From contig NZ_LGKN01000003.1 in NCBI RefSeq assembly GCF_001306175.1, positions 434,001 through 498,000 on the forward strand: a DNA stretch of 64,000 bases, read 5' to 3'. The translations under genes were made by a program, and so were the position numbers. This DNA comes from Ardenticatena maritima (lineage in GTDB: Bacteria > Chloroflexota > Anaerolineae > Ardenticatenales > Ardenticatenaceae). Of this stretch, positions 3,643 to 43,288 are shown piece by piece. Within the stretch, counting starts at the first letter, position 1. Every line of letters begins with the position of its first letter. A model generated the notes under the pieces. That model saw only the letters and a program-made list of their open reading frames with translations. It was not told the DNA's origin and made no database searches.

Positions 3643-3652
3643 GAGGGGAACC

Positions 3653-4174
3653 ATGAGAGTGCGGAAGTGGTGGCTAGTTCCATTGCTGCTATTGCTGGTG
3701 TTGGGAGGGGGGTGTCAACGGATAGCAGAAATACAAGAGGCGAGACGAGCGGCTGCCACGGCCAAAGCGGAGCGATATCCTTGGGCCGTGTATCCCATCA
3801 GCGAAGAGAGCAAGCAAGTGCTGTGTGATGCACTGGATTTGCCTGCTGGGGACCCATTCTGCGAGCCGGGACGTCCTGTCGACCATTGGGATGTGTACAA
3901 AAAGGTGAAAGCACTTTTTCCTCCGGGCACGCCCTATGCGGAGGTGGAGGCGAAGTTGGGGCGCTTCCCTCATGTGAAGGAGGAAAGTCGACAGCCCGAT
4001 GGGACATTAGTGGGACTCCGGTATGTTTATCAACTCACGGAATACGAAGGAGCATGCATATATTTCCAGCTAGATTTAAAGAGCAAAAAATTGGTCACGA
4101 GGGTTTATGCGACGACCTTGGGCAGCGGCCCTCAACGGATCAAATGCGGCCCGGCGGATAGACCGAAAAAATAG
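3653..4174 (+). CDS. Module 2: lipoprotein, candidate immunity protein
   Basis: 173 residues. ATG 3653 has an AGGAGGGG site seven bases upstream and lies ten bases after the effector stop. The N-terminus MRVRKWW, a Leu-rich segment and LGGGC (Cys21) form a lipoprotein signal. The mature part has four further Cys residues and no recognised domain. A surface-anchored lipoprotein in the immunity position implies protection against a toxin acting outside the cytoplasmic membrane. This is inference from position and signal type. Confidence 0.65.
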   Translation: MRVRKWWLVPLLLLLVLGGGCQRIAEIQEARRAAATAKAERYPWAVYPISEESKQVLCDALDLPAGDPFCEPGRPVDHWDVYKKVKALFPPGTPYAEVEAKLGRFPHVKEESRQPDGTLVGLRYVYQLTEYEGACIYFQLDLKSKKLVTRVYATTLGSGPQRIKCGPADRPKK

Positions 4175-4340
4175 GGAGGTTTCAACAGTTTGATTGCTCA
4201 ACCATCCAGCACACAACAGAGGGATAAACGAGCTGCTATTCTTCCATTAACTTTCTCAACCCATCTACGCCGGAGGAAGAAAGCCAGGGCGGGGGCGGGG
4301 CATTCGGCTGGAGGGAGAATGTCCTGCAGAGCTGCAAAGT

Positions 4341-5023
4341 CTGAACCGCTACGCGTACGTTAACAACAACCCGTTGCGGTACTCGGATCCGAGTGGGCAT
4401 GCTGCTATTTGCGGTGTAGTAGGTGAGTCCTGTGAAGGTCCGTTTAAGGCAACACTTGTTTCTCCTGAGAGTAAGATAGCCGAAATCGACCGTTTGCGTC
4501 GTAGGGTGACCGGTCCTATATTTGGTCAACTAAATGTTATCGACAAATTGAGCGTATTGGACTCAATATAACCGGATATCCCTGGATGGACGCAGATCTC
4601 TGGAAATACGTCCTCACAGGAGAGGCCAGTATAGGCGTGGGTCAAGTACGAGTTGATACGGCTATGAAATTAGAAACAAAAAATCTTGTCATCCCCTACA
4701 CACCAAATGTACTTCTCATCGGGCGGAGAGGAGCAATCGCTCTGCGGTTGAGTGTTGATCCGGCTAATATTCAATATATTGCCGCTAACATCTTAGATAT
4801 TCAAACTACTGTCCATAGATATGCAGCAGATTTGAACCTAACTACAGAACAGCAGCGAGTTTTGATAATCAATGGTTATAATGTAGGAAAAGAAAATATT
4901 GAGAAGGCCTTGATAGAAGCACAGCAAGGTTCTCCTCAAGCCTTGAGCGATTATTTGGCATGGCCTTATGCACATCGGGGGATTTTTTCCATCTACTATT
5001 CCTTTCGGAGTAACGCACCATGA
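4341..5023 (+). pseudogene. Module 3: Rhs tip with lysozyme-like domain, frameshifted
   Basis: LNRYAYVNNNPLRY and SDPSGH (4341-4400) mark the end of an Rhs core. That frame continues to TAA 4569-4571. The protein resumes in another frame (continuous from before 4586 to 5023), so one frameshift lies near 4560. The second part has TGEASIGVGQVRVDTA followed by DPANIQYIAANILDIQ and INGYNVG. This is the order seen in lysozyme/transglycosylase-like domains: an active-site Glu, then the 'GVGQ..TA' strand, then the 'NI.Y.A' helix. It is probably a peptidoglycan-cleaving toxin. The local GC content is clearly lower than in flanking housekeeping genes. Confidence 0.55.
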
Positions 5024-39776: not shown

Positions 39777-40672
39777 CCAGCCCACCGCGTACCATCTTGC
39801 TTGTTGATGGGCACTCGTTGGCCTTTCGGGCGTTTTACGCTCTTCCGCCAACCTTCCGCGATACCCAGGGGCGACCCATCAACCTCATCTATGGCTTCTT
39901 GATGATGTTGTTTCGCTTGTTGGAAAGCGAAGCGCCTGACGCCGTGGCGGTTGTTTTCGACCTGGACCATTCGTTTCGTGAAGAGATGTACCCCGCTTAC
40001 AAGGAAGGGCGGCAGACCATTGACCCCGCCGTGGCGGAGCAGGTCGAACGGCTGCGCCCTTTGCTGGAAGCCCTGGATGTTCCACTGTACACCGCGCAAG
40101 GCTACGAAGCCGATGATGTGTTGGCGACACTGACGCGCCAGATAATCGAACGCAGCGACGCCCATGTGCTCATTGTCAGCGGCGACCGGGATATGTTCGC
40201 CTTGTTGCACCCGCGTGTGCAGTTGCTCTATCCCACCCGTTCCCTGCAACAGGCGGAACGCTACACGCCTGAACGCCTGTACGAGCGCTGGGGCATTCGT
40301 CCCGAACAAGTGGCGCACTTCAAAGCACTGGTGGGCGACCCCAGCGACAACATTCCCGGCGTGCGGGGCATTGGAGAGAAAACAGCCGCCCGCTTGTTGC
40401 AGCGCTTCCCCACGCTGGACGCTATCTACGCCCATCTGGACGATTGTTCGCCGGCGGTGCGCCGTAAATTGGAGGCTGGACGTGATATGGCGCTGCTGAG
40501 CCTGCGCCTGGCGCGCCTGGTGGATGATGTCCCCACCATCGAATACAACTTCACGCGCCTCGGGCTGCGGTATGACCCGGCGCAGGTTGAAGCACAGTTT
40601 GCGGTACTTGGTTCGCAAAGTTTGCTGGATGCTCTTCCCCCACCTCGCCGAGCAAACGGGGTGGAGGGATGA
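39773..40672 (+). CDS. 5'-3' exonuclease (PolI N-terminal domain type)
   Basis: 299 residues from ATG 39773, overlapping the HEAT stop. ILLVDGHSLAFRAFYAL, VVFDLDHSFREEMYPAYKEGR, GYEADDVLATLTR and IVSGDRDMFALL carry the metal-binding acidic residues. The helix-hairpin-helix region GDPSDNIPGVRGIGEKTAARLL follows. It is a stand-alone version without polymerase domains. Probable role in RNA primer or flap removal. Confidence 0.92.
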   Translation: MTSPPRTILLVDGHSLAFRAFYALPPTFRDTQGRPINLIYGFLMMLFRLLESEAPDAVAVVFDLDHSFREEMYPAYKEGRQTIDPAVAEQVERLRPLLEALDVPLYTAQGYEADDVLATLTRQIIERSDAHVLIVSGDRDMFALLHPRVQLLYPTRSLQQAERYTPERLYERWGIRPEQVAHFKALVGDPSDNIPGVRGIGEKTAARLLQRFPTLDAIYAHLDDCSPAVRRKLEAGRDMALLSLRLARLVDDVPTIEYNFTRLGLRYDPAQVEAQFAVLGSQSLLDALPPPRRANGVEG

Positions 40673-40724
40673 CCGGCTGTTGCCGGAGAAAAGCCGTCGC
40701 TCATTGTTGTGTTGAGGAGGAACG

Positions 40725-41027
40725 ATGCCGACACCTGAACCGGGCGCTGTTTACCTTTCACCCGAGCAGGAAAAAAACATTGATGCACGCCTTGCACGTA
40801 TTGAGGGGCATGTGCGCTCTATTCGGCGCATGCTTGCCGACCATGAGGATTGCAACAGCCTGCTGGTCCAAATGTCCGCCGTGAAAGCGGCCATGAATCA
40901 AGTCATCATCAAGGTGCTTGAAGCGCACATTGAATCGTGCATTGTGGCGTGTGCCGACGAAACCGAGCGCGAGCAGGCGCTGGAAGATTTGAAGCATGCG
41001 CTGGCAATGGTGTTGCGCCGCTCGTGA
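40725..41027 (+). CDS. CsoR/RcnR-family metal-sensing repressor
   Basis: 100 residues, all-helical. RIEGHVRSIRRMLADHEDCNSLLVQMSAVKAAMNQV carries the first Cys, and VLEAHIESCI carries the His and second Cys. That gives the Cys-His-Cys set of Cu(I)-type CsoR proteins. The DNA-binding Arg/Lys residues of helix 1-2 are present. GAGGAGGAA precedes ATG 40725. No copper pump is in the window. It ends three bases from the convergent next gene. Confidence 0.88.
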   Translation: MPTPEPGAVYLSPEQEKNIDARLARIEGHVRSIRRMLADHEDCNSLLVQMSAVKAAMNQVIIKVLEAHIESCIVACADETEREQALEDLKHALAMVLRRS

Positions 41028-41030
41028 ACC

Positions 41031-41816
41031 TCAGGCCGCTTCTTCCGAGTAATCCGAATAGTGGTCGGCTTGGGCTTGCGCTTGCAGGATGAGTTGTTGT
41101 TCGGAGCATGCCGCTTCGTGCGCGCGATCACCCATCGCGCCCTGGATGCGTTCGTCTAACTCCGCCAGCAGGGAAGCGCGCCCGTAGAGGATGAGCGTAT
41201 CGCCGGGCAGGATGCGCGTGCGTCCGGTAGGCGCCCCGACATACGTGCCATCCGGTCGCACAATCCCCAGAACTTGAATGCCTTCCTCGTTGAGTTGTAA
41301 TTCCGCCAAGGTCTTGTGCGCGACCCAATCGCCCTCTTCCACAAAGAGTTCGATAATTTCATACTCGCCTGAGAGCCGCAGAAGCGCCGCGTAATCGCGT
41401 ATATCCAGGTCAGTCCAGCGAGAAAGTGCGACCTCGATGGCGTGTGAAATGAAACGCTCCAGCCGCCGACTATGCGCCAGATACCAGAGAAGTGCCAGAC
41501 CACCCCCCAGCATTCCCATCCGTTCCAACTGTGTGCGTCCGCTTACGCCGAGAAATGCCAGCATGAGCGAGGAAACACCCGTGACAATCCCGATGTTCCC
41601 AATCCACATGAGCGTTAGCGCGATGCGGCGGCGGACGGGATGGTCCACAATCATCTCGGATTCGTTGGTTGTGAAGCCTACGCCGGTAAAGGCGGATGTC
41701 GCTTGGAAGATGGCCACATCTTCAGCCACACCCGTCAGCGTGAGAGCCACCGCCGCGATGCGGATGATGAAGTAAGAAAGCACCACAATGAGCAAAACTG
41801 AAACAACGGCACTCAT
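41031..41816 (-). CDS. One-pore K+ channel-like protein with RCK_C domain
   Basis: 261 residues. A first membrane helix is followed by FQATSAFTGVGFTTNESE, a pore loop with a TGVGF filter like a single repeat of TrkH/KtrB. Two further helices follow (TLMWIGNIGIVTGVSSLMLAFL and MGMLGGGLALLWYLA). From about 140, YEIIELFVEEGDWVAHKTLAELQL through GDTLILYGRASLL is a TrkA-C (RCK_C) ligand-binding domain. It is much shorter than TrkH (about 480), so it may assemble as a tetramer of single pores gated by a cytosolic ligand. Ion selectivity is inference. Confidence 0.65.
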   Translation of the reverse strand: MSAVVSVLLIVVLSYFIIRIAAVALTLTGVAEDVAIFQATSAFTGVGFTTNESEMIVDHPVRRRIALTLMWIGNIGIVTGVSSLMLAFLGVSGRTQLERMGMLGGGLALLWYLAHSRRLERFISHAIEVALSRWTDLDIRDYAALLRLSGEYEIIELFVEEGDWVAHKTLAELQLNEEGIQVLGIVRPDGTYVGAPTGRTRILPGDTLILYGRASLLAELDERIQGAMGDRAHEAACSEQQLILQAQAQADHYSDYSEEAA

Positions 41817-41850
41817 TGTTTCCTCCTTGTCCTGGTAGTGGGCATGTCAT

Positions 41851-41888
41851 GAAAAAAGAAGGCGAGCGCAAAGCGGTGGCGCTCGCCT
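41851..41888 (-). terminator. Terminator of der
   Basis: On the minus strand AGGCGAGCGC-caccgcttt-GCGCTCGCCT is followed by TCTTTTTTC. Confidence 0.8.
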
Positions 41889-41908
41889 GTGCTCGTCTCC
41901 ACGTCTGG

Positions 41909-43288
41909 TTAGCGTTTTTTGGCGCGCGCTTTTTTCTTGGGCTTTTGGTCTTCTTGGGCGTCGCTACCGCGATAACGGAAACGCAAGGGCGTGCCTAAAA
42001 AGGTGTAGCGTTCACGAATCTGATTTTCGAGATAGCGCGCATAACTGAAATGCATCAGGTCGGGATGGTTCATAAACAGAACGAATGTGGGCGGGTCAAC
42101 CTCGGCTTGGGTACCGTATTTGATGCGCAGTTTGCGTCGTCCTTCACTGGGCGGGGCATGGCGGGCTTGCGCCTCAGTGAGTAAGCGGTTGAATTCACCC
42201 GTCGGGATGCGCTTGAAGCGTTCTTCGTACACAGCCAGAGCGAGATCCAGAATTTTGGTGACCCGTTGCCCCGTTTTGGCGGAAACAAAGATCAGCGGCA
42301 CATAATCCATGAAGTTGAGCGCCGCGCGGATACGTTGCTCGTATTCCAGCATGGTGTAGGTATCTTTTTCAATCAGGTCCCATTTATTGACAACCACAAT
42401 CACGCTTTTGTAGGCATCTAAAATGTAGCCCGCCACGTGAGCATCTTGGGCGGTGACGCCTTCGGTGGCGTCAATCACCAGCAACGCCACATGGGCGCGG
42501 TCAATGGCGCGCATGGAGCGCAAGACACTGTATTTTTCGATACCGCGCTCAATACGCCCACGGCGGCGAATACCCGCCGTGTCAATCAGCGTCATCGGGC
42601 GGCCGTAGTAGGTAATGCGTGTGTCAATGGCGTCGCGTGTCGTGCCGGGCACTTCGCTGACAATGGAGCGTTCTTGCCCCAGGATACGGTTGAGCAGGCT
42701 TGATTTCCCCACATTGGGACGCCCGACGATCGCAATGCGCACACTGTCGTCCTCTTCTTCATCGAAGGCGTCCAGGCGGCCGGGCGGGAAGTAGGCGACC
42801 ACGGCATCCAGCAGGTCGCCGGTGCCCATGCCATGCAACGCCGAGATTTCGATTGGTTCACCAAGCCCCAACGCATAAAATTCGGCGGCGTTGAGGCGGC
42901 GTTCTTCGTTTTCGGTTTTGTTGACGGCAAGCACAACGGGCTTGTCGGTGCGGCGCAGGAGTTCCGCTACCTCTTCATCGGCGGCGGTCAACCCTTCGCT
43001 CCCATCCACCATGAAGACAATCACATCGGCTTCATCCATCGCCATCAACGCCTGTTCGCGGATATGCGGCGTGAAGGCGTCATCGTCTTCGGGGGCAAGC
43101 ACAAGCCCGCCGGTATCAACCACATTGAATGTGCGCCCAACCCACTCGCTTTCACCATACACACGGTCGCGCGTTGTGCCTGGCACGTCCTCAATAATCG
43201 CTTTTTTCTCGCCAATCAGGCGATTGAATAACGTTGATTTCCCGACATTCGGGCGACCAACGAGGGCAACCAATGGTTTTCGCTTCAT
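41909..43288 (-). CDS. der: Ribosome biogenesis GTPase Der (EngA)
   Basis: 459 residues. Two GTPase domains in tandem: GRPNVGKSTLFNRL (about residue 11), DTGG and NKTE; then GRPNVGKSSLLNRIL (about 187), DTAGIRRRG and NKWD. A C-terminal KH-like domain has QARHAPPSEGRRKLRIKYGTQ. Required for 50S subunit maturation. A short acidic linker joins the domains and the tail is Lys-rich. No operon partner beyond the upstream zinc-ribbon gene. Confidence 0.96.
   Translation of the reverse strand: MKRKPLVALVGRPNVGKSTLFNRLIGEKKAIIEDVPGTTRDRVYGESEWVGRTFNVVDTGGLVLAPEDDDAFTPHIREQALMAMDEADVIVFMVDGSEGLTAADEEVAELLRRTDKPVVLAVNKTENEERRLNAAEFYALGLGEPIEISALHGMGTGDLLDAVVAYFPPGRLDAFDEEEDDSVRIAIVGRPNVGKSSLLNRILGQERSIVSEVPGTTRDAIDTRITYYGRPMTLIDTAGIRRRGRIERGIEKYSVLRSMRAIDRAHVALLVIDATEGVTAQDAHVAGYILDAYKSVIVVVNKWDLIEKDTYTMLEYEQRIRAALNFMDYVPLIFVSAKTGQRVTKILDLALAVYEERFKRIPTGEFNRLLTEAQARHAPPSEGRRKLRIKYGTQAEVDPPTFVLFMNHPDLMHFSYARYLENQIRERYTFLGTPLRFRYRGSDAQEDQKPKKKARAKKR

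Follow-up and report, generated by a model that had tools for sequence, protein, structure and literature searches.

A widespread protein family joining a single TrkH-type pore repeat to an RCK_C domain, possibly as an inverted Trk-type channel

Can a potassium pore of the TrkH type be built from one repeat that carries its regulatory domain on the same chain? The question is raised by a 261-residue open reading frame (ORF) with an ATG start at 41031-41816 (minus strand) of the window, a 64,000-nucleotide stretch of the Ardenticatena maritima genome. From its letters alone, the original prediction described a single TGVGF-type filter with flanking helices, joined to a TrkA-C domain. In PMC4334588 the Trk/Ktr/HKT transporters, which carry four M-P-M motifs, are presumed to have arisen from a simple 2TM channel resembling KcsA; a natural single-repeat relative, whether a surviving intermediate or a reduced descendant, would make that 2TM-to-Trk step testable. 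Taken singly, each component (pore fold, Trk filter, RCK_C) has been described before. The titles and abstract openings that were searched gave no description of a family joining a single TrkH-like repeat to RCK_C, and nothing under the generic name of such proteins, "TrkA C-terminal domain-containing". The TrkA-C protein of PMC4236453, a transcription factor according to that paper, lies outside the family.

The ORF is real and complete. A Shine-Dalgarno-like motif lies 5 nt from the ATG and the open frame, 271 residues in all, closes only about ten codons upstream of it, so no 5' part is missing. A missing 5' part in the true gene, which the original prediction had named as fatal to its proposal, is ruled out by these two features together with the lengths seen across the family (225-290 aa). 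Coordinates of the gene and of its predicted parts are collected in Table 1.

Table 1. Features of the single-repeat gene and its upstream flank, in window coordinates
Feature	Position	Strand	Basis
Complete 261-residue ORF: single TrkH-like pore repeat, third helix, RCK_C	41031..41816	-	
Shine-Dalgarno-like AAGGAGG, 5 nt 5' of ATG	41822..41828	-	read from sequence
M1, residues 2-27	41736..41813	-	AlphaFold2, alignment
Pore helix, residues 32-44	41685..41723	-	AlphaFold2
Filter TGVGFT, residues 44-49, Gly47 invariant	41670..41687	-	alignment
M2, residues 60-89, beginning with invariant R62-R63	41550..41639	-	alignment, AlphaFold2
Third hydrophobic helix, about residues 94-115	41472..41537	-	AlphaFold2, hydrophobicity
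Linker helix, residues 117-134	41415..41468	-	AlphaFold2, hydrophobicity
RCK_C / TrkA_C domain, residues 155-224 (PF02080)	41145..41354	-	Pfam
Predicted C-terminal helix, residues 227-260	41037..41138	-	AlphaFold2
Terminator-like hairpin and U-run between presumed der and the single-repeat gene	41850..41888	-	fold z -1.86, 7/200 shuffles as stable

The architecture recurs far beyond this locus, a spread that the original prediction had overlooked. A scan of a genome collection returned 319 relatives among 360 candidate stretches, of which the best 80 were kept, so that the family figures given here describe the members nearest the query. In plasmid records, tblastn found 19 matching records, 13 of them with at least 80% query coverage; haloarchaea account for 13 of the 19, and 12 of the matches are annotated as "TrkA C-terminal domain-containing protein", in keeping with the generic annotation usual for the family. 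Near full-length match to the family profile selected 87 members, namely the window protein, 78 of the 80 genome loci (L042 and L071 matched incompletely), L031, L016 and six of the 19 plasmid loci; L001, L002 and L015, copies of the window gene or of its nearest relative L032, were left out. A phylum label, taken from the title of the record, is available for 74 of the 87, and these fall in 18 bacterial phyla, many of the sequences coming from metagenome bins. Within Chloroflexota, relatives at E<=1e-10 occur in just 2 of 301 genomes, the window's included. The family tree needs 25 changes of phylum label where 18 phyla require a minimum of 17, and the extra changes may reflect transfer, paralogy or mis-binned contigs. 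Viral contigs searched with the single window protein yielded no relative, and the same contigs searched with a nine-row alignment yielded one among 30 candidate stretches. This diverged 245-residue member (L031:4992-5729, plus strand) lies on a viral contig of 332,864 bases beside a virion structural gene (phrog_18911), and its C-terminal part has no match to Pfam TrkA_C. Phage records that were searched held no match to the family.

Eight positions, G29, Q38, G47, E52, E54, R62, R63 and G212, are invariant in all 87 aligned members, and residue 19, within M1, is mostly R (77 members), otherwise K (8) or E (2). The usual filter string, judged from the 25 commonest among the 87, is F-T/S-G-V/A-G-F-T-T-x-E-S/A-E; the window protein reads TGVGFTT, with no TVGYG-type filter. 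Because Gly47 is identical throughout, TGVGF in the window protein is not a chance motif, and the original description of one such filter and a TrkA-C domain in a single chain of 261 residues was borne out by this glycine and by a confident TrkA_C match (E 1e-11). The four M-P-M repeats per chain that characterize TrkH are absent; there is one.

Comparison of profiles places the membrane part of the family with TrkH and not with canonical K+ channels. Profiles were built from eight TrkH proteins split into repeats (the window genome's own and seven others, 8 of 15 other loci having passed the phmmer cut and one duplicate having been removed), and from 17 canonical K+ channels, these being the loci among 30 that passed a motif and length filter. 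The hhalign probability for the family's membrane part was 91.7% against repeat D4 and 87.5% against D2, falling to 11.8% for D3 and 1.2% for D1, and was 0.6% against the K+ channels; the TrkH repeats themselves scored 4.8-44.3% against the same channels, a difference that weighs against the channel reading given below. Reversed targets gave at most 0.4% in all four cases, and in 400 trials with column-shuffled targets the score never came to 50%, peaking at 26.2%. Twelve comparisons of TrkH repeats with one another ranged from 18.6% to 93.8%, so the family stands about as near D4 and D2 as the repeats stand to each other. In the profile alignment, the family's SAFTGVGFTT lies over SAFSNTGYSL of D4.

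Library models gave fainter signals. No Pfam or NCBIfam model matches the membrane part of the window protein above its cut-off, and the 80 genome members show sub-threshold or scattered matches there; the window protein has a sub-threshold NCBIfam match to TrkH over residues 34-73 (TIGR00933, E 0.07, 12.2 bits against a cut-off of 331.15), the same model matches 12 of the 80 members at E<=0.01 (best E 0.00027), and PF02386 matches one of the 80 weakly. A tree of repeats placed the family beside D4 at 82/89; this result was set aside because the program warned of long branches meeting and of few columns (85). The assignment of the membrane part as a single TrkH-type repeat is well supported; the profiles and the repeat tree accommodate both an ancestral form and a reduced descendant of TrkH.

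AlphaFold2, run without templates, gave for the full chain a helix at residues 2-27, a pore helix at 32-44, helices at 60-89 and 96-115, a linker helix and RCK_C, with a pLDDT of 83.7 that drops below 50 at residues 138-145; the membrane part (residues 1-136), also modelled alone, reached 88.3. That model superimposes on NaK with Z 12.7 and rmsd 2.3 (85 aligned positions, model residues 1-89), on KtrB (7zpr_C, 355-442) with Z 11.8, rmsd 4.2 and 29% identity (87 aligned, model residues 1-90), and on KcsA with Z about 11, values to be read with the caution that Z below about 13 for helical models can mean merely a common arrangement. Foldseek returned no match for the membrane model at E<=0.001; its best E was 0.99, and the first row was the transmembrane domain of an AMPA receptor. 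Since this search was weak, the claim of fold depends on the structural aligner and the sequence profile together, and by these the membrane part is predicted to adopt the M1-P-M2 pore fold of K+ channels. The view of the protein as one TrkH-like pore unit plus RCK_C thus stands on profiles, fold and TrkA_C, although it had overlooked a third helix at about residues 94-115.

The C-terminal domain is more readily recognized. Pfam TrkA_C matches residues 155-224 with 45 bits against a gathering cut-off of 27, and was the sole match in a Pfam scan of the window protein at E up to 10, PF02386 not being listed; NCBIfam adds TrkA-type and antiporter matches in the C-terminal part. The survey of homologues that the original prediction had proposed found the same combination repeatedly: of the 80 proteins in alignment A3, 79 match TrkA_C, and 87 full-length members of the family were aligned. 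No RCK_N/TrkA_N match was found in the window protein, nor was TrkA_N among the 25 listed of the 29 families matched across the 80 members. A separate RCK partner subunit of the kind TrkH uses has no counterpart here, RCK_C being on the same chain. Regarding a ligand, c-di-AMP binds the RCK_C dimer interface of KtrA, according to PMC7288161, and a c-di-AMP cyclase domain is encoded in the A. maritima genome. By numbering inferred from matching of residue lists and chains, the Staphylococcus aureus KtrA c-di-AMP residues R169 and N175 correspond to N176 and Q181 of the window protein, and R and N occupy these positions in 30 and 6 of the 87 members, respectively. The residue mapping does not support c-di-AMP as ligand of this RCK_C domain, although c-di-AMP stays a candidate.

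The genome of A. maritima also encodes, elsewhere, a full-length TrkH followed by a separate TrkA-like gene, so the single-repeat gene is distinct from the standard system; the contrast that had been drawn with TrkH plus separate TrkA can be made within one genome. At G000:C3:246582-247544, matches to Ion_trans_2 and to an RCK_C-like domain share a strand with about 0.5 kb between them, each falling in a 359-residue open frame, and this locus is probably a canonical 2TM K+ channel beside the TrkH/TrkA system and the single-repeat gene.

The neighborhoods of the family's genes differ from locus to locus. Among two heuristic ORFs on each side at 85 loci, no widespread neighbor was found; the three largest clusters cover six loci each, two of them the same six, and no conserved operon partner was found in this span. 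The lack of a widely recurring neighbor fits a self-contained unit. At L085, L089 and L108, mutually similar ORFs abut the gene start, and the one scanned, at L085, is Na_H_Exchanger. A fusion to a Na+/H+ antiporter in Myxococcota was considered and ruled out, since at L085 the family gene and the antiporter-like ORF (3652-5001) occupy different frames; the long frame open upstream of the family gene looks like low-complexity sequence. On a planctomycete and an acidimicrobiial contig, RimK-type ATP-grasp ligases with C-terminal TrkA_C (L080:6382-7623 and L070:6444-8114) are found two ORFs downstream of the family gene. In the window, the upstream gene is presumably a der-like GTPase, as named from its sequence. 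The terminator-like hairpin in between was not listed by a consensus terminator scan with a loop limit of 8, and its U-run ends about 35 nt upstream of the start codon. A scan for sigma-70-type promoters over 40600-42100 found none. A CsoR-like metal-sensitive repressor (PF02583) at 40725-41027 on the plus strand is convergent with the single-repeat gene.

The third helix bears on which way the pore faces. RCK_C domains are cytosolic; TrkH pore loops face outside, and TrkH repeats are not inverted. Three crossings followed by a cytosolic RCK_C would make the pore loop cytosolic as well. Scored for insertion on the octanol scale, the third helix averages 9.2 and M1 8.7, and the third helix is above zero in 87 of 87 members. 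Charges were compared with start codons chosen by script, the choice for L082 leaving no N-terminal segment. The pore loop and C-terminal flank carry on average 11.8 K+R and the other side 1.4, with the same direction in all 87 members and again in all 56 that remain when redundancy is reduced at 60%. The sides differ in length, which makes the evidence weaker than these raw counts suggest; per residue, densities come to 0.155 and 0.066, and 86 of the 87 members keep the direction. The K/R density of the family's pore loop, 0.147, agrees with the values for TrkH cytosolic loops (0.138-0.292) and exceeds those for TrkH outer loops (0.024-0.064). An inverted protein would have the loop that joins M2 to the third helix outside; its density is 0.105, and just 57 of the 87 members have a denser pore loop. 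For the window protein the side densities are nearly level, 0.118 on the pore-loop/C-terminal side and 0.100 on the other; its pore loop has 3 K/R, a net charge of -2 and a density of 0.077, against 0.167 for the M2-third-helix loop. Charge thus favors an inverted orientation family-wide, and does so weakly in the window protein. Sequence comparison and modelling support the third hydrophobic segment and the family charge bias, as they do the single repeat, the pore fold and RCK_C.

The best reading of the locus, which we hold at about even chances, is a homotetrameric, RCK_C-gated, inverted Trk-type channel for monovalent cations; tetramer, K+ conduction, gating and orientation we infer. The gene would encode the subunit of a homo-oligomeric channel, most probably a tetramer, and each subunit would give one TrkH-type M1-P-M2, so that a symmetric filter built from four identical TGVGF loops would stand in for the four unequal repeats of TrkH or KtrB. 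The third membrane helix would return the chain to the pore-loop side, leaving the pore loop and filter in the cytosol and the N-terminus outside, an inverted Trk-type pore much as glutamate receptors are regarded as inverted K+ channels. Dimers would form between the attached RCK_C domains, a tetramer having room for two such dimers, and binding of a small ligand to them may gate the pore through the linker helix at 117-134. In HKT transporters, as PMC4334588 states, serine in place of the filter glycine goes with Na+ selectivity, and K+ permeation is the default guess for a protein with glycine in each subunit.

Against the inverted arrangement stands a single-repeat homotetramer in the usual TrkH orientation, its filter outward and residues 94-115 half-inserted or lying along the inner leaflet. 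Homology to D4 and D2, whose loops face outside, speaks for it, and the inverted reading must assume a flip that TrkH repeats do not show; should the third helix lie in the interface and not cross, the usual orientation returns. The net negative pore loop of the window protein also agrees with it, as do plain counts for two crossings, in which K+R on the inner side exceed those of the loop in 64 of 87 members and equal them in 7. Per residue, however, just 11 of 87 members have that supposed inner side K/R-denser than the loop, and segment 94-115 is as favorable for insertion as M1 in a family where every member scores above zero. We regard the usual orientation as unlikely, though worth serious thought. 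The original interpretation is changed here in that the third helix and the family charge pattern predict a filter facing the cytosol, so that the protein would be more than a quarter of TrkH placed in the membrane in the normal way. Inversion does have a precedent in glutamate receptors, whose pore is regarded as a K+-channel pore turned over (PMC6385376).

The fold might also have been kept in a non-conducting, channel-derived accessory or sensor bound to another transporter, such as TrkH or a Na+/H+ antiporter. The directly upstream ORFs at 3 of 85 loci, one of them scanned as Na_H_Exchanger, would suit such a role, and a same-strand gene lies within 80 bases upstream at 27 of 85 loci and downstream at 26. 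No partner recurs beyond six loci, however, and identity of the filter glycine in all 87 members would be unexpected without selection on a pore; we rate an accessory role as quite improbable. That the protein has one repeat of four could suggest what is left of a longer, disrupted TrkH gene, or else an artifact of assembly, but the SD-preceded ATG, the frame closed upstream and the 88% identity over full length to L032, from a second Ardenticatena genome, oppose this, and the existence of a family with 87 members of 225-290 residues is decisive, leaving a chance close to nil. The broader proposal we put forward tentatively, at somewhat below even chances: that a widespread family, undescribed in the literature searched, consists of homotetrameric single-repeat Trk-type K+ channels set upside down, with filter and RCK_C both cytosolic, and so provides another inverted K+-channel-like pore beside that of glutamate receptors and a living one-repeat relative of Trk/Ktr/HKT.

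Among known systems, TrkH and KtrB of the Trk/Ktr/HKT group share with the family the P-loop/M2 profile (in D4 and D2), the one-glycine filter and the pore fold, but have four repeats and a separate TrkA or KtrA, whereas the family has one repeat, a fused RCK_C, an extra third helix and a predicted inverted orientation. Channels of the MthK type (2TM-RCK) and the pores of NaK and KcsA have the same M1-P-M2 fold, and the former likewise place a C-terminal RCK part on one chain; the window protein differs in lacking the TVGYG filter, in the RCK_N domain, which was not found in it, and in a profile match to such channels of only 0.6%. The RCK_C domains of KhtT, CpaA and KtrA resemble that of the window protein in fold or sequence, but there RCK_C goes with an antiporter or a ring, and here it is joined to a pore-like domain. 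Ionotropic glutamate receptors and GluR0 have an inverted K+-channel-like pore, according to PMC6385376, as is predicted for the family of the window protein, which has no substrate-binding domain and instead a Trk-type filter and an RCK_C domain; if its pore is inverted, the family would offer a prokaryotic counterpart of the inversion that has been proposed for those receptors.
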